The position numbers were made by a program, and so were the translations under genes. A stretch of DNA of 64,000 nucleotides from Vibrio palustris (GTDB taxonomy: Bacteria > Pseudomonadota > Gammaproteobacteria > Enterobacterales > Vibrionaceae), in the NCBI RefSeq assembly GCF_024346995.1, contig NZ_AP024887.1:806001-870000 (forward strand), in the 5' to 3' direction. The notes below the pieces were generated by a model, which was given only the letters and a program-made list of their open reading frames with translations, was not told where the DNA came from and made no database searches. Shown in pieces: positions 13,433-25,752 of this stretch (its first letter is position 1; every line of letters begins with the position of its first letter).

Positions 13433-13523
13433 GGAGAGATGGCTGAGTGGTCGAAAGCACCGGTCTTGAAAACCGGCAACCGTTAATAGCGGTTCTAGGG
13501 TTCAAATCCCTATCTCTCCGCCA
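13433..13523 (+). tRNA. tRNA-Ser(UGA)
   Basis: A 91-base class II tRNA with an acceptor stem GGAGAGA/TCTCTCC, a long variable arm, the T-loop GGTTCAAATCC, discriminator G and an encoded CCA at 13521-13523. The anticodon loop CTTGAAA gives anticodon TGA (13467-13469), reading UCA serine codons. Its 3' end is the attachment site of the island that follows, and the island's left end restores the complete 3' sequence. Confidence 0.97.
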
Positions 13524-13528
13524 TATTC
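13498..13528 (+). repeat. attL: 31-bp direct repeat in the 3' end of tRNA-Ser
   Basis: The 31 bases from GGGTTCAAAT to CCATATTC, covering the T-arm, acceptor 3' strand and CCA, recur exactly at 25689-25719. This is the signature of site-specific integration by a tyrosine recombinase. Confidence 0.95.
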
Positions 13529-13557
13529 AAGCCCTTGATTTATCAAGGGCTTTTCTC
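13529..13557 (+). terminator. Terminator after tRNA-Ser, probably brought by the island
   Basis: AAGCCCTTGA and TCAAGGGCTT form a 10-bp stem followed by TTTTCTCGTTTT. It differs from the terminator beyond attR (25721-25752), which was presumably the original tRNA terminator, so the island seems to supply a replacement. Confidence 0.8.
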
Positions 13558-13575
13558 GTTTTAAAGCGAACAAAT

Positions 13576-13598
13576 GTCACCTAATACAAGTAGGTGAC
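13576..13598 (+). promoter_or_regulatory. Hairpin covering the ribosome binding site of the first integrase
   Basis: Perfect 8-bp arms GTCACCTA and TAGGTGAC with a 7-base loop. The 3' arm contains the AGGTG Shine-Dalgarno, and the ATG follows at 13603. It could sequester the ribosome site or bind a regulator. Confidence 0.6.
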
Positions 13599-13602
13599 AC
13601 AT

Positions 13603-14922
13603 ATGTATTTGATTAAATTGAGCAATAACGTGTTTTATACACGTATTTCCACTCCTGTTGCACTACAGACTTCTCTTGGTTATCCAATAGAGATTCGTCT
13701 ATCTCTTTTCACTAAATATCGTCGATTAGCGACCAAACGAAATGCTCAGCTTGCTAGCGCGATTCACACGCTACATGAACAAGCTTTAGCAGAAAACATC
13801 CCTTATACAGATTTTAAGATTAGCTTATCTAAAAAGGTGGCGGAGATTCGCCAACAGTTCTGCTCTAATCTTCCGCATGTAGACAACCCACAGTCAAAAT
13901 GTACGTCAATGAGTATGGAGACCCGAGCAATGCCTGCTCCTGCTCCTGCTCCTGAAGAAAGCCTAAGCAGTCCTTTGGTTGGAGCACAAGAACTTACCAC
14001 CGAGTTAAATAACTTTATTCGTAGTAAACGTCTAGAACAAGTAACGCCTTTGACTCTAACTCAATTAAATCAGCGGTGTACTAACTTCTTGAACTATCTA
14101 GCCAAACAGGAGATATGCTTATCTGCGAAAGCTGCCAACACTTACAGAGATCACTTAATTGAAAAAGGATTAAGTGCAAAGACAGTAAAATAATACATTG
14201 CAGCCAATAAGCAGTTCTTTGATTACTGTTAACGAATTGAACTCATTGAGAAAAATGTCTTCAAAGCTATTAAAGCACAGAAAAATCGTGGAACAAAAGC
14301 ATCACAGCAGCGAGACCGCTGGCAGTTAAAAGAGCTTCAAAAGTTATTTTCTAGCTCCGAATATCGTAAAAAAGACGCACAATTTAATTGGACAACCAAG
14401 ATACAGCTATACCACGGTTGCCGTCCTTCCGAAGTTTGCCAGTTAACGACCAGTGACATTCAAATGATTGAAGATGTCCCATGCATCACGGTTTCCGATT
14501 CTGACACTGAACAGCGGCTAAAAACATCCAATGCTTTCCGCACTATCCCTTTGTACAATCAATTGATAAAAGAGGGTTTTCTTGATTATGTGCAAGAGCG
14601 CCGAGAACAAAAACAGAAACAGCTTTTTGATTATAAGCCGCACGGAGAAAACAAAGATTGGTCATTTCGATACCGTACCAACCTCGGGAAACTGCAAACC
14701 ACAATGGGAATGAAGCCCAATGCTCGACCAACGGCTTACTCATTCCGACACACTTTTATCGATGAGTTAAAGATTGCTAATACACCTGAGCACATAGTGG
14801 CTGAGATTGTAGGTCATGCTCATCCCAATATCACCTTCGGACGATACGGAAAACAAGCGAATATTCAGCAATTAAATGAAGCAGTTAACAAGTTTCCATC
14901 AGTAGAGGTGATGTATGCGTAA
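13603..14922 (+). pseudogene. Tyrosine recombinase (integrase) interrupted by two in-frame stop codons
   Basis: One reading frame runs from the ATG at 13603 to the TAA at 14920 (about 439 codons) but is broken by TAA at 14191-14193 and TAA at 14230-14232. The first part holds the N-terminal arm and core-binding helices (SAKAANTYRDHLIEKGLSAKTVK). The rest holds the catalytic domain: Arg in HGCRPSEVCQL, the SFRHTF box, GHAHPNIT and the nucleophile Tyr in FGRYGK. Both stops would be cured by reading CAA (Gln), consistent with C-to-T changes. Lying next to the attachment site, it is the original integrase of the island. Confidence 0.88.
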
Positions 14923-15298
14923 ACTAGCAAACTTTGAGCTTAAAGCGATTCTAGACGCCATTGAGCATGCTGATTTTACAAATAACTATGACTTCTTCAA
15001 TCTGTTAACTTGTGGTATATCAATTGAACAGATTAGAGCAGTATATAGGCTCAAATCAGCTTTGCAGCGTGACTCTTCTAAAACGATCTTCGATTATCCC
15101 TTGTTTCTTGATCAAATTTACTCGAATGTTGAGTCCTTCTATTCAGTGAAAGAGGCTCTTGGATACGAAGTTGATACCCAAGAAATAGAGCGGGAAGATA
15201 AGCTTATATTTCTTATGCAATTTTTAGCTGAAAACAAAATGCAACTCAGTATAGACCGCCGTAATACACCGTACTCTATTGCAATAAATCTAGGCTAG
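14915..15298 (+). CDS. Unknown protein, 127 residues
   Basis: I do not recognise this protein. It is soluble, mostly helical in appearance and acidic (NYDFFNLLTCGISIEQIRAVYRLKSAL...), without signal peptide or membrane segment. The ATG overlaps the end of the integrase frame by 8 bases and follows a good AGAGGTG ribosome site, so it was probably translated with the integrase. It could be an excision or regulatory accessory, but nothing in the sequence proves that. It is followed closely by another small gene. Confidence 0.65.
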   Translation: MRKLANFELKAILDAIEHADFTNNYDFFNLLTCGISIEQIRAVYRLKSALQRDSSKTIFDYPLFLDQIYSNVESFYSVKEALGYEVDTQEIEREDKLIFLMQFLAENKMQLSIDRRNTPYSIAINLG

Positions 15299-15312
15299 GA
15301 AGGAGCTTTAGT

Positions 15313-15510
15313 ATGGAAGACATTCATAAACAATTAAGTGTCAGCAAATCATTTCTCAACGATACATTTGCCATGATACGTATTGCGAAAGATGGTGAAG
15401 TATGGGTGCAGTATTCAGATAAGCTTGATATACCCACTGGCATAAAAGCTATGCGTATTACCGCTAAAGTTCTAAGAGTTATAGCTACTGAGTCAACTAA
15501 CAACAACTGA
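15313..15510 (+). CDS. Unknown small protein, 65 residues
   Basis: A 65-residue protein of no recognised family, with a helical N-terminus and a beta-rich centre (AMIRIAKDGEVWVQYSD). It starts 14 bases after the preceding gene behind a strong GGAAGGAGC ribosome site, so the two probably form a pair with the broken integrase. A bidirectional terminator follows at 15531-15559. The good ribosome site is the main support that it is translated. Confidence 0.6.
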   Translation: MEDIHKQLSVSKSFLNDTFAMIRIAKDGEVWVQYSDKLDIPTGIKAMRITAKVLRVIATESTNNN

Positions 15511-15530
15511 CAAGGTTTTCAAACCCGAGA

Positions 15531-15559
15531 TAAAAGCGGCTTATAGCGAGCCGCTTTTA
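15531..15559. terminator. Bidirectional terminator between small island genes and dgt
   Basis: TAAAAGCGGCT and AGCCGCTTTTA form an 11-bp stem with a 7-base loop, with T-rich flanks on both strands. It ends the small-gene operon on the plus strand and the dGTPase gene on the minus strand. Confidence 0.85.
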
Positions 15560-15595
15560 AAAATAAGTTGAAGTTTTAGACGTTTGTTGGATTAA

Positions 15596-17062
15596 TTACT
15601 TAGATGCACTAAGATTTTGGTATTGTTCTAGAGCGAAACCATCAGTCATACCACTAATATAATCAATTACTAACCTGGAACGATGATAAATCTCAGTTAG
15701 CTTTTGGGCGTTTGAAGGGGTATCAGCGGCATAGAGATCAGATACTGCCGAAAAATAAGTGTTCTTATGTTTACTCGATAACTTATGGAATAAACGTGTT
15801 TCAATCGGATGACTTTTTAACCTGTTGCTTTGTGCTAGCGTCTTAAACTCCGAGAACGATAGTTTGATCAACGGAGAATAAATTTCCAACAGCCCAGATA
15901 TTACTGCATATCCCTTTAGCTCCAAGTTTTCAACTTCAGCATGATTAAATACATTTTCTATCGAGAGAAGCCTTAAAGTCTCGGTTGCAAGATTGTACTT
16001 ATCACACCCATCAAGCAAAGACTCATCAAAAGCCCCCGAAAAAACCAAACCATGGTTTTCAACATAACGGCTAGCTGCATAGTGTGCGAGATCATTAACT
16101 AAAGTCGTACGAAGTGTCAAAATATAGGCATGGTTACTATTAAATTTCTGCTCTCTAGCTTTTTCCATAGCTTTTCCAGAGATTTTTAATAAGTAACCCT
16201 CATCTACTAAAGAGTCGTCAACGCCATCTTTTCCTCGGAAAGATTCCCATATTCTTGCTATTTCATAATGGAGTTTATCTATTGATAGAATACCTTTATC
16301 GACGGCATCATCAACGTCGGCAATGCAGTAAGATATATCGTCAGCAGCCTCCATAATGTAAGTTAGTGGGAATCTTGCACCATCTTCAATCCCAAGGTTT
16401 TCTTGTATAGATTTGTACAATGTTTCTTCCGTCAGGTAAAAACCTGGCTTCTTTTTTCTGTATTTGAACTCATCATTAGCAGATGAAGGCTTATCTTCAT
16501 AAGCGGCTCTCGTATATTTTACCAAACAAGCCAATTGCGTATATGTAAGATTCAAAGCTTGTATTTGATGTAGTAGTCTAATCCCTTGGGCATTACCTTC
16601 AAAATTACAAAGATCTTTAATTAACTTCTGACAATCTGTTTCTTCACCAAAAGCATCTTGTATGGTTTTAGAGAGAAAGGACTTAGTCCATAAATTAATA
16701 GCCTCTTCGCCAAAATGACCAAATGGTGGATTACCAATATCATGTAGCAAACATGATACCTCTACAGCACTAACAAAACCTTCCGAATACTCTGAGAGGT
16801 CAAACCCCTGCTTACCAAGCTCTTTAAGAATAATTTTACTTATGTAGCGACCAACTTGCTGAACTTCTAGCGAATGCGTTAAACGACTTCGAACAGCTGC
16901 ATTAGATTCTAATGGGAAAACTTGCGTTTTCTGTTGTAAACGCCTTACGGCGGCAGAGTTGACTGCTCTGCCACGATCGCTTTCCATTTCTTCATTGAAA
17001 TCGCGATCTCCAATAGTGGAAGTTCGATATCTATCCGATTTTAGTTTTTCTTCATAGTTCAT
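15596..17062 (-). CDS. dgt: Deoxyguanosinetriphosphate triphosphohydrolase-like protein (dGTPase)
   Basis: A 488-residue HD-superfamily enzyme that would cut dGTP (or other dNTPs) to the nucleoside and tripolyphosphate. Motifs: SDRGRAVNSAAVRRLQQKTQVFP, His63 in RLTHSLEVQQVG, the metal-binding HD pair in LLHDIGNPPFGHFGEEAI (His107, Asp108), and a later Asp-rich helix EAADDISYCIADVDDA. Length and motifs fit type 1 dGTPases. The ATG at 17062 follows a GGAAAC ribosome site; a TTG six codons upstream is less likely. dGTPases are known anti-phage proteins that drain dNTPs during infection, and its place on an island fits that, but a housekeeping role is not excluded. Confidence 0.9.
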   Translation of the reverse strand: MNYEEKLKSDRYRTSTIGDRDFNEEMESDRGRAVNSAAVRRLQQKTQVFPLESNAAVRSRLTHSLEVQQVGRYISKIILKELGKQGFDLSEYSEGFVSAVEVSCLLHDIGNPPFGHFGEEAINLWTKSFLSKTIQDAFGEETDCQKLIKDLCNFEGNAQGIRLLHQIQALNLTYTQLACLVKYTRAAYEDKPSSANDEFKYRKKKPGFYLTEETLYKSIQENLGIEDGARFPLTYIMEAADDISYCIADVDDAVDKGILSIDKLHYEIARIWESFRGKDGVDDSLVDEGYLLKISGKAMEKAREQKFNSNHAYILTLRTTLVNDLAHYAASRYVENHGLVFSGAFDESLLDGCDKYNLATETLRLLSIENVFNHAEVENLELKGYAVISGLLEIYSPLIKLSFSEFKTLAQSNRLKSHPIETRLFHKLSSKHKNTYFSAVSDLYAADTPSNAQKLTEIYHRSRLVIDYISGMTDGFALEQYQNLSASK

Positions 17063-17587
17063 ATTGTTTCCAACTGACAATACAGTTTACAAAATACAGA
17101 CAATACCTACATATAACACGATAGTAAACTGATTACATAGTTAACCATTAGCTAAAATAGGTCAACAAATGGCAAGAGAAACACATCAAGCTTATTGAGC
17201 TAAACCACTTTGGGGATAAAAAACTAGTCCATACGCCATAATATCTAAACTTTGGCTCCTTCTGCGATAAGTGACTAAAGTTCACCAAGCATGTCTTTCA
17301 GTCCATTAAGCCAACCCCAATCGTCTTAGCATTTCAGAGATTGCTACTTTTCACAATCTTCCCCTACCAACCAATCCACTGGTTATTTTTTGACCGAACG
17401 GAGCATTTTTTTCAAAAAATTTTCTAGCTCAAAAGTCTCGATAAGCTCAATGCGTATAGGTTTGAAAAATAATTGCAAAATCGATATCGGTTGTTTCTTA
17501 TTATTGAAAACTCATATCAAAAGTAAATATTTTATTGTTAATTTTCAATTACTTACATCATTGGCGACTGTGGTTTTTAGCCGTAAC
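17063..17587. other. AT-rich intergenic region between dgt and the second integrase
   Basis: About 525 bp holding the divergent promoters of dgt and the integrase. Two short overlapping frames (17390-17605 and 17535-17798) lack ribosome sites and recognisable domains. I see no gene. Confidence 0.45.
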
Positions 17588-17628
17588 TTCCGTTTTGACG
17601 AATGACTTGCATTCGATAAAAAACGGAA
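17588..17628 (+). promoter_or_regulatory. Two-part hairpin covering the ribosome binding site of the second integrase
   Basis: The outer arms TTCCGTTTT and AAAACGGAA pair over 9 bp, and the inner arms CGAATG and CATTCG add 6 bp around a 5-base loop. The outer 3' arm contains the CGGAA Shine-Dalgarno, six bases before the ATG at 17635. The arrangement parallels those at 13576 and 18878. Confidence 0.6.
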
Positions 17629-17634
17629 AATATT

Positions 17635-18747
17635 ATGAAAACTATTACAACTACAAAGTTACCAACTGTAAAAGACTACATCGACGCATATCTCATAGAG
17701 AGAAAATATTGTTCAGCTCCCTCGACATTAGCCTCCGATCTCAGCAGAACAAAGAATATAAACGAGGCATTGGGAGAGTTCGCCATCAATGCAGTTAGCC
17801 ACTCTCAGATTAATACGCTTCTAGTAAGTTGGCACGAGCGCTTTAGCAACAAAACCATCAACGAACATCTGACAATCTTGCGTCGTATTTTTTTGAAAGC
17901 GGTACGTGATGGCGTAATTGCCCGAAATCCAATGAAAGGCGTACAGAACTACAAAACGGTAGAACTGGAGCCAAACCCTTTCACAAAAAAGGAATTAGCA
18001 CGGATGTATGAGTGCAAGAATGTCTGTACCCAAGGACAGAATGCCGTAATGCTGAATCTGCTGACAGGTCTTCGTATCAGTGAACTAATAGCATTGTCTT
18101 GGCAAGATATAAACTGGGAACGCGAAGTGCTCTATGTCCGTCGCGCTTGTGTATTGAACATTTATAAATGCCCAAAAACTAGAGGCTCGGTACGTGAAGT
18201 TGATTTAAATCCACTTGCTTTAAAGCTATTGAAAAAGCAGCTGAAACTGACAGGAAAGCGCCGCCCACAAACAATCAACATTCTTGAATGCGACAATAAA
18301 ACATTCACGAAAGACTCTGTCAGTTTCATTTTCCTAAATATAAAAACGAATCAACCATTTACTGATGCTAAAGAATTCACAGAGCGATTCTTCATCAAAT
18401 TTCTAGAACAAGCGGATGTGGCTCATAGAGGTGTCGGTCAGCTACGTCATACATTTGCTTCCCAGTGCCTAACCGCAGGGATCAGCAAAGACTGGCTCGC
18501 GGTTCAAATGGGACATAAAAGCACAACAATGATCGACAAACACTATGGTCGATGGATTCGTGAAGACTCACCCAACTACGCAAGAGAGGCTGCGCAACAC
18601 CTTCACGAGATATTCGGCCTACCGCAAATAAAGCCAAAAGTGACTTTACCTTCTGTTCCACACTCTTCGTTAGTGTTGTTGAAAAAACTTCAGTCCAAAC
18701 CACAGCTCATTCAACTTCTTGAAGGCATGCTGGAGAGCGACAGATGA
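17635..18747 (+). CDS. Tyrosine recombinase/phage integrase family protein
   Basis: A 370-residue site-specific recombinase with an N-terminal SAM-like core-binding domain (about residues 10-105) and a C-terminal catalytic domain. The catalytic residues visible are Arg147 (TGLRISEL), Arg271 (QLRHTFAS), His294 (MGHKST) and the nucleophile Tyr304 (DKHYGR). The box II position usually occupied by His reads Gly268, which is unusual. It is intact, unlike the integrase near the tRNA, and could be responsible for other recombination or could still move the island. A short frame overlaps its stop by four bases. Confidence 0.9.
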   Translation: MKTITTTKLPTVKDYIDAYLIERKYCSAPSTLASDLSRTKNINEALGEFAINAVSHSQINTLLVSWHERFSNKTINEHLTILRRIFLKAVRDGVIARNPMKGVQNYKTVELEPNPFTKKELARMYECKNVCTQGQNAVMLNLLTGLRISELIALSWQDINWEREVLYVRRACVLNIYKCPKTRGSVREVDLNPLALKLLKKQLKLTGKRRPQTINILECDNKTFTKDSVSFIFLNIKTNQPFTDAKEFTERFFIKFLEQADVAHRGVGQLRHTFASQCLTAGISKDWLAVQMGHKSTTMIDKHYGRWIREDSPNYAREAAQHLHEIFGLPQIKPKVTLPSVPHSSLVLLKKLQSKPQLIQLLEGMLESDR

Positions 18748-18869
18748 GCACGGTGACCATTGAGACCAAACATAAAGTCGTACATTTTGAAAATGTGACG
18801 ACATGGCAACCCGCTACGTTTCCGTCACACTTTTGCTCGGAAGCTGCGGGCAAGAGAAGGCTCTCTTGA
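18744..18869 (+). CDS. Possible 41-residue small protein coupled to the integrase
   Basis: An ATG overlapping the integrase stop (ATGA) opens a 41-codon frame ending at 18867-18869. No family is recognised. The four-base overlap suggests possible translational coupling, but there is no separate ribosome site, and the frame is short enough to be chance. It could also be a leader for the gene at 18900. Confidence 0.3.
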   Translation: MSTVTIETKHKVVHFENVTTWQPATFPSHFCSEAAGKRRLS

Positions 18870-18877
18870 CTCTCTAA

Positions 18878-18898
18878 CTCGACCTCTTGGAGGTCGAG
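18878..18898 (+). promoter_or_regulatory. Palindrome covering the ribosome binding site of the relaxase-like gene
   Basis: CTCGACCTC and GAGGTCGAG pair perfectly over 9 bp with a 3-base loop. The 3' arm contains the GAGG Shine-Dalgarno, six bases before the ATG at 18900. It may act as a translational lock or an operator. Confidence 0.65.
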
Positions 18899-18899
18899 A

Positions 18900-20157
18900 A
18901 TGAGAACAATCAGCTTATTCCACCGACGAATGAATTACTCTTCAACTACAGAAAGTCGTGTAAAATGCGAACACTCTCTTGCGCATTCTCTCAGGATTAC
19001 TCCTCCAACTAATGCCAAAATATCCAAGAAACTTGAGTTCAATGAGGAGCTAAGCCAACACAATTTCATCTGGATAAACAACCATATTTCTCCTCTGGAA
19101 TCTTGGACTGAAACTGAGCGGCTTGAACTCTTGTATAAGATTGTCCCAGAGCCACGTGTTCACAACCAGTTAAAGCTTCAAACACAGCAGCGCCAGTATC
19201 GCCGCAAAATGAAAAACGCAATAGATAGTGAAATTAAAAGTGGTAACACGGATGCTGCTAAGTTTTTGCAGAGTATTTTAGAAACTGATGGTCATGTTTC
19301 GTACTCCTCTATTCAGAAGTTTTCTCTTCTGACAATGCAGCGCAAGAAACAGCGTCTCAAGATGCTAGAGACTTATCTGAATGCTCACAATCAGCTACAA
19401 CACAGAGCGCCGACTAATAACATATTCATCCAAGAAGGGATTTTTAAGATCCCTCACAGATGGGAGGTTGGTAGTGATCTGGTGAATGCTTCGGATTATA
19501 TCGAGTTCACTCGGCTATTCCTTGTTCATTATTTCCCAGACTATGAAATTAAAACAATTATTTGCCATGACGATGAAAGGGATAAAAACCAAAACACAGG
19601 GTGCCACACACATTATTTTTTTATCTGCGTTGAATCAAAAAACCAACAAATTTGATCTTCACAAACGCCAAATACAAGTTGTGAGCGAATACATAGAAAA
19701 AGTTACAGGGGTAAAGGATTTCTTTCCTAGTAACTCAAAGTTGACCCGTAAAGAGACGCAAGACCTTGGGCATTACTTTCAACGAATGGTTCAGCATTTT
19801 GCGAATGAACATTTGTGTCGTTCAAAGGGCTTGCTAATTGAGTTTTCTACTGAAACAGAAAGGAGATCAAAGCAGCGTAAAGAAATGGATCAGCAAGCAA
19901 AACTTCCAAAAGGCCAAAGAAGAAACAACTTAAATAACTACTTGCTCAAAAGACAAGCAATACAACGAAAGGAACTCGCGAGTGATATTGAAGCAGGAAG
20001 GAGTGAACTAGACGGTATTAAAACGCAAGTTGCTATTTCTACAGGCGAAAACGAAATGATCAATGAACTAAAAAGGCAAAATAGCCGAGATATTTCTGCT
20101 GAGAAAAAAGAAATCGTTCAATTGCGTGCTGAAAGGCACGCCCTCTTTCGGTGTTAG
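18900..20157 (+). pseudogene. MobV/Pre-like relaxase gene with a frameshift
   Basis: Two overlapping frames together encode one protein of about 418 residues. The first (18900-19655) ends soon after CHDDERDKNQNTGCHTHYFF, which resembles the His-rich motif of MobV/Pre relaxases (H-D-E...H-x-H). The second (entering near 19615-19640) continues with FDLHKRQIQVVSEYIEKV and a coiled-coil C-terminus. The shift is +1, as if one base were added in the run of seven T (19616-19622) or six A (19637-19642). It could be a real frameshift, an assembly error or programmed slippage. The start ATG has a strong ribosome site inside a hairpin. The relaxase assignment is tentative. Confidence 0.6.
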
Positions 20158-20160
20158 GAG

Positions 20161-20349
20161 TTGACATTACCAATAATTATTAATATATTTTCCTCAGGGT
20201 TAGCTTCCCTGTCGCATGATTCTGTCAAAAGGCGACACTTTGCACTAGTTGCGCTAGCTGAAAATTTGGAAAGATTTGAAAGCCTAATGTGGAGACAGGA
20301 CGGGGCTTTATTACCTTATTTTCAACTAATTGCGAGAGTGCAACTATGA
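20161..20349 (+). pseudogene. In-frame extension after the amber stop of the relaxase-like gene
   Basis: The reading frame of the second relaxase segment stops at TAG (20155-20157) but stays open for another 63 codons to a TGA that overlaps the next gene's ATG by four bases. It has no ATG near its beginning and only a badly spaced GGAG before a TTG. It may be the former C-terminus cut off by a point mutation, or an independent small gene; the residues are not recognised. Confidence 0.35.
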
Positions 20350-21413
20350 ACCTATCTACTAGACAACCAAGACACCTCAAATACAAAGACTCTGAATTGC
20401 GTAGTAATCAACGCTTTTTGAGAGACTCTTGTTTATTCCTACCAAATGGTAAAAAACTCCACGAAGTCCGTTCAACGAATGTTGATATCGACGAATACTG
20501 TTTGAGTCTTTTCGGTCAAACCGAAGCCTCATTAATTGAAGAGTTAAAACGAAACATCATTAAACAACATGAAAACGCTGTGGATGTAAGAGCCAAAGCT
20601 CAAATGATGATTAACAGCCCTATTTTCAGTTATGACTCAATCAATATTAAGCTTGCATTGCGTGAGGTGGAAAAATTACTAAAACCTTGTGCAAAACAAG
20701 AGTATTTAGACTCAATTTATGAACTTGGGTTGCTCTACATGGAGCATGGAAGCCTACTTGGAAAAGGCGAAGCTGATTATTATCCTTTAGTTAAAAAAGC
20801 TGTAAAAAAGGGACACTCTGATGCACCGTACAACCTAGCCGTACACCACTTAAAGAAAAAAGAATGGGTTGAGGCTGAAGAACTCCTCTTGATCGGAGCT
20901 AAAAAGGAAAATTGTTCTTGCTTAAATAAACTAGCTGAAATGGCAGAAGAAGGTGTTACAAATAGCTTATCGAAAAGTGATGCTGCGAGATATTACGAAA
21001 GAGCAATGAGAAAAGGACTTCCATACGCTGCTATCAATTTAGCTAGACTCGTTTTTACTGGAGAAGACAAAAAGCATAGTGTTCAAGATGCTGTTTCCTT
21101 TCTTGAGGAGGCTGCAAGGGATGGTGAAGTCAAAGCTATGTGTCAACTTGGTATTATTTACGAAGATGGACAGTATGTTGAAGCTGATTTTAAAAAATCT
21201 CTTTCTTTCTATCAGCAAGCTGCTGATTTAGGTGACGCTAATGGGCAGTTTTTTCTCGGCTTCATATATAGAAACTTATGGGAAAAATTTGGTTTAGAAA
21301 AAAATCTATCTTTCGGTATCACGTTGTATCAAAAAGCGGCTGCACAGGGCCATCAGGAAGCTATTGCTAACCTAAACAAAGCTAATCTTTCTTCATTACT
21401 TAATCAATTTTGA
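20346..21413 (+). CDS. Sel1-repeat (TPR-like) protein
   Basis: A 355-residue soluble protein made of helical Sel1-like repeats. Clear units include AARYYERAMRKGLPYAAINLARLVFTG, AVSFLEEAARDGEVKAMCQLGIIYEDG and SLSFYQQAADLGDANGQFFLGFIYR, spaced 36-40 residues apart from about residue 140 to the end. Such repeats mediate protein-protein contacts. The N-terminal 100 residues are not recognised. I chose the ATG at 20346, which overlaps the preceding stop by four bases; an earlier in-frame ATG at 20289 has no ribosome site. It sits directly behind the relaxase-like gene and may belong to the same transcript. Confidence 0.8.
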   Translation: MNLSTRQPRHLKYKDSELRSNQRFLRDSCLFLPNGKKLHEVRSTNVDIDEYCLSLFGQTEASLIEELKRNIIKQHENAVDVRAKAQMMINSPIFSYDSINIKLALREVEKLLKPCAKQEYLDSIYELGLLYMEHGSLLGKGEADYYPLVKKAVKKGHSDAPYNLAVHHLKKKEWVEAEELLLIGAKKENCSCLNKLAEMAEEGVTNSLSKSDAARYYERAMRKGLPYAAINLARLVFTGEDKKHSVQDAVSFLEEAARDGEVKAMCQLGIIYEDGQYVEADFKKSLSFYQQAADLGDANGQFFLGFIYRNLWEKFGLEKNLSFGITLYQKAAAQGHQEAIANLNKANLSSLLNQF

Positions 21414-21426
21414 GCAGGCCAATACT

Positions 21427-21630
21427 ATGAGCAGAACTATTCAAGCACTTAAACTAATCACTGAAGAACTAGAAGATCAAGGAAAGAGAATTGATAAACT
21501 GGAACGCAAAGTGAGGAATTTAGAAATTAGGGATAAGGTCAGAGTTCAACGAAAAAAGCAAGTTGACGTAGCAAAGGAATATAACCTATCGCCATCAAGT
21601 ATTAGTGAAATATCAAAGCATACTCACTAA
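21427..21630 (+). CDS. Small coiled-coil protein, 67 residues
   Basis: The first half (about residues 5-40) is a heptad-rich coiled coil (ITEELEDQGKRIDKLERKVRNLEIRDK). The second half (about 45-65) resembles a helix-turn-helix (QVDVAKEYNLSPSSISEISK). It starts 14 bases after the Sel1-repeat gene and is probably cotranscribed. It could be a small DNA-binding regulator or a partner of the neighbouring proteins, but I do not recognise the family. Confidence 0.6.
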   Translation: MSRTIQALKLITEELEDQGKRIDKLERKVRNLEIRDKVRVQRKKQVDVAKEYNLSPSSISEISKHTH

Positions 21631-22250
21631 TAAAGAGTGTAACTTTCGGTTATTTTTAAGAATGAATGAAAGAGGAGTGACGACCCTCTTTCAAGTAATA
21701 AATAACCACCTAAATTTCGTTTTCCCTCGTAACGGAAACTAGGTTGGAGGCCGTTGCAAGCTATTGATACAAATGAAAGCATGTTACCATCGTATGTACT
21801 TACTTGTACCCTTTCGGGATAGATTAGAAATCATACTCAGCATTCGCTATTTACAGGTTTAACTCAAACACTTTGGGGCATTTTTGTGTCTTAGGCCAGT
21901 CGGCACTTTTATGGATATAAATCAACTAGTTACTTTGATAAGTTAGTGATTTATTAATTGCTTTTAGCATCACAAACGTAATTTTAATATAAGAAGGGGA
22001 AGTAAATGCATCTCTATGTAAATTTGAACTTTCAATTCTACAATAGCCAAGTGGCTAACATGTCATCTCAATAATTTAGCATCCAGAATTTTGTATACCT
22101 TTTATAGATACCATAGTGTAATTACTCTCTCATTTTCTCCCTTACCAATTGGTCTAACACTTTGAGATAGATTAATTAAGAGAGTTTAACGGTAAAACAA
22201 GACAGGCGCTTACAGGAGACATAGGGAGGTTATATCTCCTATTCAAACAT
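21631..22250. other. Intergenic region inside the island
   Basis: A 620-bp AT-rich stretch. It contains a hairpin at 21668-21692 (GAAAGAGG/CCTCTTTC), which may end the plus-strand operon, and one at 22214-22240 (AGGAGACATA/TATATCTCCT), possibly the 3' structure of the minus-strand ATPase mRNA. A 22-codon frame at 22006-22074 has an unusually good ribosome site (AAGGGG). Nothing else is recognised. Confidence 0.45.
22006..22074 (+). CDS. Possible 22-residue small protein
   Basis: A 22-codon frame whose ATG follows AAGAAGGGGAAGTAA, a near-perfect Shine-Dalgarno. The peptide is rich in Asn, Gln and aromatic residues and matches nothing I know. The ribosome site is the only support, so this is a weak call. 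Confidence 0.2.
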   Translation: MHLYVNLNFQFYNSQVANMSSQ

Positions 22251-24809
22251 TTATTTTCTTCTTGTTTTCAGGTTAGTAAAGTACTCATCAAGGTCTGCTA
22301 CATCTTTTTCCAATTCATCAATATCTGGAAATGCACCAGCAACTTCCTCTGCCATATCATGTCCGTGCATATATGTACTGCACTTGCTCATAGCAGTATT
22401 AATGGTTTCAACATCTAGGTCAGTAATATCAGTTAGGTATCTGCAACTCTGGGTTTTTACTTCCCTATTGAAACGCTCAACAACACCACGAATCAACCAT
22501 TCTTCGACAAGCCTTTCCCAAGTTTCTCGCATTTTCCCATAGATAAAGCCTGCTTTATGCTGATAGTCTTCTATGGATTCGTTGGCTGCTTTTCTAGCTC
22601 TGACTAACCTATCTTTGAGAAAACCTATTCTGCTTTGTGTTTTTAAAGCGTCCCAAGGTGGAGCATCGAGAGGAATGCCCGTAACACTCTTATTTCTAGT
22701 AACAGCTCTAATAGTTACATCGTCAGCAGTCTCTTGAATCATTTTCATGAAAGGTAAGTCATGAGTAAATACGATTACTTGTCTTGATTTTGCTGCCTCA
22801 ACGATTCTCGTTGCGAATTTCAGCCTCCATATGTGATCAAGAGAATTTACAGGATCATCAAAGATGATTGCAGACTTTCTGCTATCGGTAGCTAACTCCG
22901 CGAAGAAGCTCGCTAAAGATATACACTTTTGCTCTCCTTCACTTGCAATATCGATAATGTTTGTATTGTTCCCTGAAAGCTGAATACTGAAGTTTTGGTT
23001 CCCTTTAGCACCTTTCGTGAGAGCATTAATCTTGAAGTGGTTAAAACCTAATTTTTCTAGCTCACTATTGAAAAACTCTTGCATCCGTCCTATCGAACCA
23101 GAGCTACATATCTCGTTATTTAACCTCGTAATAGCAGTTGTAGAAGTGGAGCGCTTAACCTTATCATAGGCGTCTCTTTGCTTAGCTTTCGCAATTTCAG
23201 CTTTAATTTGCTCTTTGACCGCTAAGATTTTCTCTTTGTCTTCAATCTCAAAGATTCTCTGCTGTTTAACCTTAATTGCAGCAGCTTTTGCTTCGTCATT
23301 CAGTACTACTTTCTCTGCTTCCTCCAATTTAGTTATGTAGGAGTTTAACCGTGTAAGTGCTACTGAATTTATTTCCTCTTGTTTAAATACAGGGGTGTCT
23401 TGTAACAAGCTATCAGATCTAGTTTTAAGTGTTAGAATCAGCGTATCAAACTGCGTACCTAACTCTGCATCCTTCTCTTTGATTTCATTGAGAATGGCGT
23501 CATATGGAATAGTAGAAAAACTTAAATCCTTAATTTTCTTAAGTTCTGTATTCCAATTTTTCAATGCAACATCTGCTTCTTTTTGCAACTCACTGCGAAG
23601 GTAAGTATCGAAAGAAGCTAACCGAGATGCAGTTGTATTATCAATTTCCTGTAGGCATGTTGGGCAGTGGTCACCTTCCTGTAGAGGAAATGTCTTCTTT
23701 TGTTCTGTATTTTCAATGAATAGTTTGGCCGCGTTCCACATCGTAAGCCATTGTTCGGAACCTATATTCGATACTGGTAGTTGAGAAAATGTTACAGAAC
23801 TTAACTCAGCCGCAGCTAACTTGGTTTGTTCTTTTTTGCTGTATACAGCCTTATAGTGTTCCACCGACTTTAGATTTAGTGTATCAACTAGATTTTGTAA
23901 GAACTTTTGAAGCGGCACAGCCCGAAGTCTTCTTTTTTGATATCGGTCTTTAAGTGTTTGAGGAGAATTATTAGTCAGTTCAATAACTTCTTTTCTCAAT
24001 TCTTGTAATTCAGACAGTTCTTTTTGAGTAGCACACAATAAATCTACGTTCTCAGGTTTTAACTGTGAGCTTATGACTAGTTTGCTTGGTGTTGTGCCTA
24101 TATTCATTTGTGGAAGAACATGGACAGGTAGATAAGAGGTCTCTTCCTTTTTCGCCTTATCAGCGATGAAGCTACTCACTTTGAGCAACTCATCTAATAG
24201 CTTCAAAGCCGCTGGTTTGAAGTCCAAAGTATCAGTTTTAGACAGATAGTGAATTGATGATTGTGAGTCAAATACTCGAATAGACTTAAGACGAGGGTCT
24301 GGCTCCAATTGATTGTTCCATGTCACCAGTACTGGTTTACCATTTGACTCTATTTGAATTTCTGCCGATGGTATTCCAATTTTGGCAGCGAAGACGTTAT
24401 GTTGTAGAGCAGGAGCTTCCCCCCTTGTTAAGCAGGCATTCTTCAATATCTTGGCATAACTCGACTTCCCAGCTCCGTTGTTACCATAAATGACAGTTAA
24501 CCCTTTCGGTGAAAACTCGATTTTTTTCTCCGCAGCAAGTGTTGATATGTTTAAAGCATTACCAACAGAAATAAGTTTGTTTTCTTCAGCTTCTGCATGA
24601 TATCCAGTTGCTTTAGCTCGCTGAGTTAATATCTCGTAATCTGGACTTTTGTCTTCTAAACCAAACTCCATCTTTGCAAGTATGTAAGCAGTTTCGAGTT
24701 CTTGATGTGATAGTTCGCCTAAAATCAATGCTTGGTTTAGAGTGTACCTCCACCAATCAGGCTTTCCTTTACTGTTTATTAGGTCACAGATTTTTGTTGC
24801 AATTGGCAT
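22251..24809 (-). CDS. Large ABC/SMC-type ATPase with zinc-hook-like CPTC (RloC/SbcC-like), candidate defence protein
   Basis: An 852-residue protein with a split ABC ATPase: Walker A GNNGAGKS (109-116), signature ASEGEQKCISLASF (622-635), Walker B AIIFDDP (647-653) with NSLDH after it, and the switch His683 in FTHD. Between the ATPase halves lie long coiled coils with a CPTC pair (Cys382, Cys385), resembling the zinc hook of Rad50/RloC. The C-terminal 150 residues contain an RxxxE (Arg761, Glu765) and later HGH (815-817), faintly like the Arg-Glu-His set of RloC/PrrC tRNA nucleases; the spacing differs and this is speculation. Good ribosome site GAAGGAAG. A single-gene effector seems likely. 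Confidence 0.8.
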   Translation of the reverse strand: MPIATKICDLINSKGKPDWWRYTLNQALILGELSHQELETAYILAKMEFGLEDKSPDYEILTQRAKATGYHAEAEENKLISVGNALNISTLAAEKKIEFSPKGLTVIYGNNGAGKSSYAKILKNACLTRGEAPALQHNVFAAKIGIPSAEIQIESNGKPVLVTWNNQLEPDPRLKSIRVFDSQSSIHYLSKTDTLDFKPAALKLLDELLKVSSFIADKAKKEETSYLPVHVLPQMNIGTTPSKLVISSQLKPENVDLLCATQKELSELQELRKEVIELTNNSPQTLKDRYQKRRLRAVPLQKFLQNLVDTLNLKSVEHYKAVYSKKEQTKLAAAELSSVTFSQLPVSNIGSEQWLTMWNAAKLFIENTEQKKTFPLQEGDHCPTCLQEIDNTTASRLASFDTYLRSELQKEADVALKNWNTELKKIKDLSFSTIPYDAILNEIKEKDAELGTQFDTLILTLKTRSDSLLQDTPVFKQEEINSVALTRLNSYITKLEEAEKVVLNDEAKAAAIKVKQQRIFEIEDKEKILAVKEQIKAEIAKAKQRDAYDKVKRSTSTTAITRLNNEICSSGSIGRMQEFFNSELEKLGFNHFKINALTKGAKGNQNFSIQLSGNNTNIIDIASEGEQKCISLASFFAELATDSRKSAIIFDDPVNSLDHIWRLKFATRIVEAAKSRQVIVFTHDLPFMKMIQETADDVTIRAVTRNKSVTGIPLDAPPWDALKTQSRIGFLKDRLVRARKAANESIEDYQHKAGFIYGKMRETWERLVEEWLIRGVVERFNREVKTQSCRYLTDITDLDVETINTAMSKCSTYMHGHDMAEEVAGAFPDIDELEKDVADLDEYFTNLKTRRK

Positions 24810-25136
24810 AGATACTTCCTTCGCTGATGTGAATATCCATGATATTGCATATTATTTATAAAAAACTGATTATAGCTCAAATAAATAAATCCAACTGAGA
24901 ACGCCTTCGACGCATATTGAACAATCAATAAATCCGATTTTTCACATCAAAGGTATAGTGAATGCCTAAGATTAGATTTTCTATGGGAGCTTGTGTTTGA
25001 CTTCGCATAATCAAGTACTAAATCTAACAAGTTTCTGGGGCAGAAATAACCTGGTCGCGCAATCATCGATTTGCTAACTCGATGATGATTGCGAAAGAAC
25101 AACTTAGTTATAGAGTTGGCTTTGCTTTATAGGATT
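24810..25136. other. Intergenic region between the HipB-like gene and the ATPase gene
   Basis: About 327 bp containing the ATPase promoter region. An imperfect inverted repeat at 25058-25093 (GCAATCATCGA against TCGATGATGATTGC) lies just after the HipB-like gene and may be a terminator without a T run or a protein site. There is no trace of a hipA-like frame. Confidence 0.45.
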
Positions 25137-25403
25137 TTACCAATCATCAGGGTCACGAAGCTTAGCCTGTTCACGGCTTACAGCTTTGTCTTGAATATGT
25201 AGCTCAAGATCTAGTGATGACAGCAGGCGCATCAGACTTTCGATACTGGACGAGGTAGGATCACGTTCAAGTTTCGATACCGTGGTCTGTTTTAGACCCA
25301 CAATATCGCCGACTTTAGTTTGGTTGCGCCTTTGATTCCTGCGTACATCACGCAAGTATATCCCCAGTTGCTTAGGACTTGTTATAAGCATATCTGCCTC
25401 CAA
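25137..25403 (-). CDS. HipB-like HTH repressor (XRE family), without a HipA partner
   Basis: An 88-residue helix-turn-helix protein close in layout to HipB antitoxins: LGIYLRDVRRNQRRNQTKVGDIVGLKQTTVSKLERDPTSSSIESLMRLLSSLDLELHI, followed by a short C-terminal tail. In HipBA modules a kinase gene follows directly, but here 327 bp of non-coding DNA and then the ATPase gene follow on the same strand. It probably regulates itself through the three palindromes immediately upstream, and may also control the ATPase. The ATG at 25403 could be replaced by the Met at residue 5. Confidence 0.85.
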   Translation of the reverse strand: MEADMLITSPKQLGIYLRDVRRNQRRNQTKVGDIVGLKQTTVSKLERDPTSSSIESLMRLLSSLDLELHIQDKAVSREQAKLRDPDDW

Positions 25404-25409
25404 TCTAAA

Positions 25410-25484
25410 TTAACCCCTGTAGGGGATATTAGCATTTTAACCCCTATGAGGGTTAAAGTTAATTTTAACCCCGCACAGGGGTAA
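25410..25484 (-). promoter_or_regulatory. Three tandem palindromic operators of the HipB-like repressor
   Basis: Three 20-bp sites share the pattern TTAACCCC-N4-GGGGTTAA with small variations: 25410-25429, 25437-25456 and 25465-25484. Their starts are 27 and 28 bases apart, between 2.5 and 2.7 helical turns. They start 7 bases upstream of the repressor's start codon, as expected for autoregulation. Confidence 0.85.
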
Positions 25485-25688
25485 TCAGTAATAGCTAAGA
25501 TTAAGAGGATTAGTTGACTGGGTAAGGATACTAGAAAATATTTCGGCTTATATGCTTGATGCTCTTGCTAAGTTCGATTGTTTTCGTATACTTATTGTGA
25601 TTAACATTCGTCAACGTGACATTTGGTTGATGAACGTAGAAAGCTAGAAAATTCAAGAGATTGATATATATAGGTTTTCAAAGAGATG

Positions 25689-25719
25689 GGGTTCAAATCC
25701 CTATCTCTCCGCCATATTC
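25689..25719 (+). repeat. attR: second copy of the 31-bp tRNA-Ser end
   Basis: An exact copy of 13498-13528 but without the rest of a tRNA upstream. It marks the right end of the island. The original tRNA downstream region continues beyond it. Confidence 0.95.
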
Positions 25720-25720
25720 G

Positions 25721-25752
25721 AAAAGCCCGCTGATTATTCAGCGGGCTTTTTT
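25721..25752 (+). terminator. Original tRNA-Ser terminator, displaced by the island
   Basis: AAAAGCCCGCTGA and TCAGCGGGCTTTT pair over 13 bp with a 4-base loop and a T run. Before integration this would have followed the tRNA directly. Confidence 0.85.

Follow-up and report, generated by a model that had tools for sequence, protein, structure and literature searches.

The island in tRNA-Ser(UGA) and its genes

A mobile DNA island stands in a serine tRNA gene, tRNA-Ser(UGA), of the Vibrio palustris chromosome, where 12.2 kb of DNA are bounded by two perfect 31-bp copies of the 3' end of that gene. We analyzed this island within a stretch of 64,000 nucleotides (NZ_AP024887.1, positions 806,001 to 870,000; hereafter, the window), in whose coordinates its features are listed below. 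The sibling used for comparison is the island of V. fujianensis, and dN/dS is the ratio of nonsynonymous to synonymous substitution rates.

13433..13523, + strand: tRNA-Ser(UGA), integration target, one of three identical genome copies (ARAGORN)
13498..13528, + strand: left attachment site (attL), 31-bp repeat, tRNA 3' end
13594..14922, + strand: int1, tyrosine integrase (DUF6538 N-terminus, Phage_integrase C-terminus) with two in-frame stops
14915..15298, + strand: small core gene, 127 aa, dN/dS 0.06 against V. fujianensis
15313..15510, + strand: small core gene, 65 aa, also in V. fujianensis and V. cincinnatiensis
15571..17210, no strand: cargo slot A, replaced in the sibling (blastn breakpoints)
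15596..17080, - strand: Dgt-type dGTP triphosphohydrolase (dGTPase), intact
17635..18747, + strand: int2, second tyrosine recombinase (XerC/D-like), intact, dN/dS 0.10
18770..18873, + strand: structured conserved site, with an upstream inverted-repeat partner and hairpins H2 and H3; tip of H2 missing in the window
18878..18898, + strand: hairpin predicted to mask the ribosome-binding site of the relaxase gene (minimum free energy fold of the window; siblings by eye)
18900..20157, + strand: MOBV-like relaxase gene (fold from the intact sibling), frameshifted (open reading frames 18900-19655 and 19486-20157), 3' end missing
20142..25134, no strand: cargo slot B, replaced in the sibling (blastn breakpoints)
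20289..21413, + strand: Sel1-repeat protein (slot B)
21427..21630, + strand: small open reading frame (slot B)
22251..24809, - strand: RloC-like ATPase with CPTC zinc hook and R-x3-E-x51-H, PDC-S06, intact
25137..25403, - strand: HipB-like helix-turn-helix (HTH) gene, core
25689..25719, + strand: right attachment site (attR), 31-bp repeat

The boundaries agree with the initial annotation of this DNA, which had described a 12.2-kb island in tRNA-Ser(UGA) with a perfect 31-bp repeat at both ends. Indeed, the direct repeat (13498-13528 and 25689-25719) is exactly 31 bp long, identical in the two copies, and cannot be extended; a 23-mer taken from it has two occurrences in the window, 100 shuffles gave none (up to 3 mismatches), and the guanine-cytosine content is 0.386 inside the island vs. 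0.442 and 0.429 in the flanks. Three identical tRNA-Ser(UGA) genes are present in the host genome (G000; 3.74 Mb, two contigs), and int1 was not found within 1.5 kb on each side of the other two.

The integrase next to the tRNA, the second recombinase, and the relaxase-like gene reported in the same annotation are all present, although two of them are damaged. The frame of int1 (13594-14922) is interrupted by two in-frame TAA, whereas its V. fujianensis counterpart is a single open frame (L087 72-1175, with the 5' side cut by the contig end); the relaxase gene (18900-20157) is split over two frames and ceases to be homologous to the sibling 274 nt before the sibling's stop codon. The hairpin preceding it lacks the tip of H2 and scores 62 bits, compared with 50 to 106 in the siblings, and a KfrA-like gene belonging to the family core was not found in the window island. 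The tyrosine recombinase gene int2 (17635-18747) and the dGTPase, RloC-like, and HTH genes are open frames. The window copy is apparently a decayed island member, unable to move by itself and with its cargo intact, and it can probably no longer move. The term “mobilizable” would suit the intact family members, which encode a MOBV-like relaxase, but it is not supported for the window copy because lesions affect int1, the relaxase gene, and the hairpin site. The two halves of int1 diverge unequally from V. fujianensis (synonymous divergence, dS, 0.05 and 0.63), which may be taken as a sign of mosaic ancestry inside the core.

The dGTPase, the hook-containing ATPase, and the HipB-like gene had all been considered as cargo; the three genes are there, but the last one has to be assigned to the core since it is shared with the islands of V. 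fujianensis, V. salilacus, and a further genome (G051). Its product scores 45 bits against the HipB equivalog model, below the cut-off of 79, and no HipA-like Pfam family was found among the 10 island proteins scanned, whereas in a HipBA toxin-antitoxin pair HipA would stand beside HipB.

The comparison set comprised one genome per species. Close relatives give no syntenic flank because the flanking dehydrogenase and HD-GYP genes are too divergent (at best 88%, in G112, and 61% identical elsewhere, respectively), and a conserved gene upstream, encoding a 661-aa protein, was therefore taken as the landmark instead. It was found in nine of the ten stretches examined, the tenth (L171) being DNA beyond the V. 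fujianensis island. In four stretches (L162, L164, L166, L167), a tRNA-Ser(UGA) without int1 lies 3-7 kb from the landmark; they belong to four other species (G019, G012, G006, G011). There, the tRNA is on the opposite strand relative to the 661-aa gene as compared with the window, and the places may thus not be strictly the same. As for the remaining stretches, int1-like fragments lie beside an HD-GYP gene at a contig end in L165, the end of a family island lies beside the 661-aa gene in L170 (V. salilacus), and no tRNA-Ser was found in the pieces L163, L168, and L169, which bear the landmark. The empty-site comparison proposed in the initial annotation hence revealed int1-free tRNA-Ser(UGA) genes both at the two other copies of the same genome and, near the landmark and on the other strand, in four other species; on this basis, the island is not a fixed segment. 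The idea of an old fixed chromosomal segment flanked by a chance repeat, with which the probable immobility of the window copy would agree, appears virtually untenable: in addition to the int1-free genes just mentioned, the repeat was not matched by chance in the shuffles and the V. fujianensis sibling holds other cargo.

A family of islands with exchanged cargo

The comparison with V. fujianensis (blastn) revealed three blocks of shared DNA, i.e., 13825-15570 (90%), 17211-20141 (95%), and 25135-25752 (90%), whereas slots A and B of the window have no match to the V. fujianensis island. This swap shows two entry slots for cargo, the first between int1 and int2 and the second between the relaxase gene and attR. 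In V. fujianensis, the cargo comprises an nSTAND3/Mrr protein (PDC-S73, 5.8e-135), an AAA_13 ATPase, an AbiEi-like protein, and a PDC-M22A/B pair.

Judged from its genes, the window island belongs to a family present in Vibrio, Photobacterium, and Shewanella, whose members share a putative transfer machinery and swap their cargo. A counterpart of int2 is 98% identical in V. fujianensis (G158, represented by L087 and L099) and 47-52% identical in nine other Vibrio genomes; 12 stretches were taken around int2 matches, two of them more distant. A scan of the GTDB contigs with the relaxase alignment retrieved 17 loci, distributed among Vibrio, Aliivibrio, Photobacterium, and Shewanella and in several cases representing the same places, and a further scan added others, bringing the distinct relaxase-gene loci mapped to 28 in all. 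In 18 of these, a tRNA-Ser(UGA) has int1 beside it; three are cut by contig ends (L087, L088, L089), and in L090, int1 adjoins an attachment-site (att)-like repeat, with no tRNA called. The int2 gene is found in 24 of the 28 loci (12 of which were chosen by int2), the KfrA-like gene in 12, and the HTH gene in the three named above. Within the 196 Vibrio genomes, the relaxase gene occurs in 37 (E ≤ 1e-10); 62 have a relative of int1 (E ≤ 1e-40), which in some cases is partial or another integrase.

The fullest order is tRNA-Ser, int1, (small gene), slot A, int2, hairpin, relaxase, KfrA-like gene, slot B, (HTH gene), att. The V. barjaei island (L100/L148) is devoid of int2, and gene order or strand deviates in some members (L097, L098). 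As expected of integrative and mobilizable elements, the family possesses an integrase and att sites at a specific target, together with its own predicted relaxase and/or proposed origin of transfer (oriT), which are broken in the window copy, and no mating-pore genes; indeed, when 10 window and eight sibling proteins were scanned with Pfam, no family of type IV secretion systems exceeded its cut-off. Two arrangements may be mentioned here. In G109, a 3.7-kb island (L091 800-5100) with int1 and the hairpin, and without int2 and relaxase, stands in tandem to a full island. In V. sinaloensis (G048), two more copies of the tRNA-Ser 3' end, 3.7 kb apart (L186 13346 and 17044), lie beyond the island core, and a second small island may thus stand in tandem there.

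The cargo was compared with the PADLOC catalog using chosen open reading frames, mostly of at least 150 aa, from 14 islands selected among the mapped loci. In nine of the 14, cargo matched at E ≤ 1e-30: the window, V. fujianensis, V. cincinnatiensis (methyltransferase), G109 (PDC-S31), G009 (methyltransferase), G091 (cyclase, E1-E2, and SAVED-HNH effector of a cyclic oligonucleotide-based antiphage signaling system, CBASS), V. sinaloensis (PDC-S25 and DUF1848), Photobacterium pectinilyticum (HEC-06), and Vibrio sp. RE86 (Hachiman HamA/HamB and PRTase_III-A). The matched genes sit between the tRNA/int1 and the second copy of the tRNA 3' end; in the V. fujianensis and V. cincinnatiensis islands, the contig end truncates the tRNA side. 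As a control, one of 10 flanking proteins of the window matched PADLOC at E ≤ 1e-5, that is, the 661-aa protein (DpdF, 2.3e-92). A different type of cargo appears to be present in Vibrio sp. PID17_43 (L154 2-7425), where apparent arsenic-type genes, judged from protein starts, lie beside the family core in place of defense genes and no second att was seen.

These data are in agreement with the earlier view of a tRNA-gene island with defense cargo, the cargo of the family being often of the defense type and swapped between members. The search of defense catalogs suggested at that time retrieved both the ATPase and the dGTPase of the window; the accompanying idea of “unnamed defense systems” is only partly right because the former is catalogued as PDC-S06 and has RloC motifs, and the latter is of the Dgt type.

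The match of the ATPase to PDC-S06 extends over the entire protein (1124 bits), which exhibits a Walker A motif at 109, a CPTC hook at 382-385, and R761-x3-E765-x51-H817. It thereby resembles, in its sequence motifs, the RloC anticodon nuclease as described in the relevant passages of PMC2610378, that is, an ABC ATPase with Walker motifs, a CxxC hook in an insert, and R-x3-E-x36-52-H near the C-terminus (the gap being 51 here); it differs in being catalogued in PADLOC as a candidate, PDC-S06. CxxC is found in all 12 aligned proteins, and in two homologs, the gap before the histidine is 54, outside the printed range. Relatives at E ≤ 1e-60 occur in 12 of the 196 Vibrio genomes, that of the window included. 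A copy of the block 22194-25049 (2.85 kb) is found in G087 (98.2%), and copies of its 2.7-kb part lie at two places of G142 (97.5%); in G126, the identity is 88.7%. Since the island int1, int2, relaxase, and HTH genes are absent from the pieces examined (L048, L049, L050, L051), the block travels by itself as well. RloC-like proteins were found in 266 of 72,556 plasmid records, all below 60% identity, and no phage carriage was found.

The dGTPase matches PDB 4x9e (E 9.9e-124), exceeds the cut-off of NF003429 (the equivalog of E. coli Dgt type), and has relatives at E ≤ 1e-60 in 23 of the 196 Vibrio genomes, including that of the window. It is known that dGTPases are able to protect from phages. 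The window protein shares with anti-phage dGTPases the HD dNTPase nature and the match to the PADLOC dGTPase model (E 3.7e-66), but differs from them in fitting the Dgt-type equivalog and in scoring 179.2 bits against the NCBIfam anti-phage dGTPase model NF041026, whose cut-off is 400.

The relaxase, the hairpin site, and the possible routes of movement

The relaxase of the family is about 500 aa long and carries no Pfam or NCBIfam name. The predicted fold of an intact sibling is nearest to MobM/MOBV, and the nearest folds listed are MobM, MobA, NES, and TraI/TrwC. An HxDE...HxH motif can be aligned with Mob_Pre proteins; H223, D225, E226, H236, and H238 are invariant in 17 of 17 relaxases, and so is H29, for which a nicking role by likeness to MobM is only a guess. 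Among solved structures, the search by sequence gave only three weak matches, to coiled-coil or trimeric proteins, and no match was found in 50,697 phage records nor in viral contigs. A relative of the relaxase, together with the hairpin, is carried by the 4-kb plasmid pSTUT-A16-2 (L176), yet this plasmid is typed as non-mobilizable by MOB-suite.

The stretch upstream of the relaxase gene is strongly folded in the window (z -5.3). The hairpin covaries. In 17 siblings, 95% of its cells pair; eight pairs change on both sides (a value reached by 6 of 500 shuffles), and the cells changing on both sides are 34 vs. 10.6 in shuffles (0/500) and 1-3 when the alignment is slid. The RNAalifold covariation term is small (-0.91), and no Rfam match was found at the site (E ≤ 1). 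The left arm has an upstream partner at 19-20 nt in 16 of 18 sequences (three of 21 had no such arm and were left out of this analysis), and in 11 of the 18, this match is better than in shuffles (p ≤ 0.013). An alternative H1-H2 pairing was considered as a stem, with 83% of cells paired vs. 36-52% when slid; in the absence of clear covariation, it is to be regarded as a conserved repeat and not as a proven stem. The short hairpin over the ribosome-binding site, whose stem in the siblings of alignment A3 is kept, by eye, while letters change, may control relaxase translation.

A covariance model (R1) was built from 17 of the hairpin loci, which therefore match it by construction. At E ≤ 0.01, it finds the hairpin in 34 of the 196 Vibrio genomes; 30 genomes have both hairpin and relaxase gene, seven the relaxase alone, and four the hairpin alone (G139 strongly; G080, G120, and G138 weakly). 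Sites with E below 1e-8 number 37. A relaxase match follows within 60 bp at 34 of them; the other three, which have no relaxase, are that of the 3.7-kb island of G109 (tRNA-Ser, open int1, hairpin, other genes, att) and two in G139, both downstream of broken int1 copies. Two plasmids carry the hairpin as well, pSTUT-A16-2 (4.8e-11) and pRVS1-224 of Aliivibrio salmonicida (1.3e-10; L177 4000-4075), with no annotated family relaxase beside it in the latter; 14 other stretches scanned were devoid of it. On pRVS1-224, the hairpin lies near an AAA ATPase and a DUF4435 gene.

In pMV158, overlapping inverted repeats forming the oriT are described at the mobM promoters (excerpts of PMC5863519). The conserved structured site before the relaxase gene and its upstream inverted-repeat partner are similarly arranged, and on these grounds, we propose the hairpin site as the origin of transfer, an RNA leader being less probable. 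The family relaxase has in common with MobM of pMV158 the best fold match, the HxDE...HxH motif, and competing inverted repeats directly 5' of the gene; it differs in scoring below the Mob_Pre cut-off, in its long C-terminal helix, in the sequence of its site, and, with respect to MOBV in general, in that the plasmid with a family relative is typed as non-mobilizable.

Taken together, we consider it probable that the window island belongs, in decayed form, to a family of integrative and mobilizable elements having a MOBV-type relaxase, a hairpin site, and two cargo slots. According to this model, intact members would use int1 to integrate into the 3' end of tRNA-Ser(UGA), as the att repeats and their position show; they would be nicked at the hairpin site by a distant MOBV-type relaxase, as the fold, the motif, and the gene order suggest, and might exit the cell via the mating pore provided by a conjugative helper. 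Cargo, often phage defense, enters the two slots. The window copy would have lost autonomous movement and kept the dGTPase and the RloC-like protein; the former would drain dGTP, and the latter would sense a DNA or restriction signal via its Rad50-like ATPase/zinc hook and cleave tRNA anticodons.

Several observations weigh against this model. Foldseek alone gave no E below 0.001 for the relaxase, and no Pfam relaxase family, Mob_Pre included, exceeded its curated cut-off (two family relaxases score 21.4 and 21.6 bits vs. 25.5). Further pair types in the hairpin are not above shuffles (251/500); the relaxase gene has no hairpin match in seven of 37 genomes, including V. cincinnatiensis and V. 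salilacus, in which a short spacer without H2 precedes it, and two of the three relaxase-free sites may be remnants. No pair of tRNA-Ser and int1 was seen in the piece examined at six of the 28 mapped loci (three of Aliivibrio, L104-L106, and L108, L111, and L113, from V. fluminensis, V. mimicus, and Vibrio sp. HA2012). Five of the 14 islands scanned gave no PADLOC match at E ≤ 1e-30 (V. salilacus, G037 with a chemoreceptor-like protein, G119 with a GHKL ATPase, V. plantisponsor, and Vibrio sp. PID17_43). Lastly, the dN/dS of the two relaxase halves of the window is still low (0.18-0.25), which implies that the damage is recent or that the pieces still work.

Other explanations might account for part of these data. 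The 500-aa protein might be a rolling-circle replication initiator, the hairpin its origin, and the whole element an integrated plasmid in place of a mobilizable island. Rep proteins and relaxases share the HUH fold, a KfrA-like gene, of plasmid type, occurs in 12 of the 28 mapped loci, and a relative of the protein resides on a 4-kb plasmid; this same plasmid, however, bears, as a distinct protein, a “replication initiation protein” containing a Replicase domain, and the nearest folds listed are relaxases, so that we regard this origin as unlikely. Improbable, in our opinion, is also that the hairpin acts as an RNA leader governing relaxase translation and not as a DNA transfer site. Its location on the mRNA strand, at most 60 bp from the relaxase gene at 34 of the 37 strong sites and followed by the hairpin over the ribosome-binding site, would fit such a leader; on the other hand, the site is kept in three relaxase-free places, one of which has an open int1 and both att ends (the second island of G109), and the inverted-repeat partner resembles the pMV158 oriT as outlined in PMC5863519.

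It is also conceivable that phages disseminate the island, either as a satellite or by transduction, in the manner of the tmRNA islands of PMC12595487 or the phage-inducible chromosomal minimalist islands (PICMIs), to which it is similar in size, tRNA att sites, and defense cargo, as far as these are portrayed in the source texts. Such a route seems very doubtful, as no primase, AlpA, packaging, or capsid family was found by Pfam in the 10 window and eight sibling proteins, the relaxase is unmatched in the phage records and viral contigs, and a relaxase is present at all. The PICMIs are moreover defined, in the portion of PMC10803314 concerned, by integration at fis and by a primase and AlpA, whereas here the target is tRNA-Ser and no such Pfam families were detected in the 10 window proteins scanned.

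Known islands and the meaning of the family

Defense islands at tRNA genes and mobilizable islands are already known kinds of elements. The mobilizable genomic islands (MGIs) of Vibrio at yicC/trmE and the relatives of SGI1 (PMC5704250, PMC9299015, PMC8409611) likewise combine an integrase and a mobilization site with restriction or toxin-antitoxin cargo; the islands listed differ in having no relaxase of their own or MpsA, of tyrosine-recombinase type, and in targeting protein genes and not tRNA-Ser. The Vibrio pathogenicity island VPI-2 of V. cholerae shares the tRNA-serine target and a tyrosine integrase, but is set apart by its description in the pertinent parts of PMC3014918 (57 kb, sialic-acid cargo). 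The presence of several tyrosine recombinases also brought strand-biased circularizing elements into consideration. What is new is the relaxase branch/hairpin module, which Pfam, NCBIfam, and MOB-suite did not recognize here; no description of this relaxase/hairpin island family was found in the open-licence literature searched.

On balance, we are inclined to believe that these islands represent an unrecognized mobilizable-island family of Vibrionaceae and Shewanella, with its own branch of MOBV-like relaxases and a structured origin, neither of them seen by present typing tools, which would shuttle phage-defense cassettes between tRNA-Ser(UGA) sites, and that some relaxase-free islands (integrase plus origin) would ride on full members. 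If this idea is correct, it might provide a transfer route for part of the “phage defense elements” of marine Vibrio, whose transfer mechanisms are said in a section of PMC10803314 to have remained unexplored; in V. europaeus, unclassified regions of plasticity are indicated as the main reservoir of defense systems (statement taken from PMC12824646). Profile A2 and covariance model R1 provide a handle to search for more islands. Many defense genes of marine Vibrio lie on islands without recognized means of movement, and a relaxase and an origin missed by standard profiles would offer such islands a testable route.

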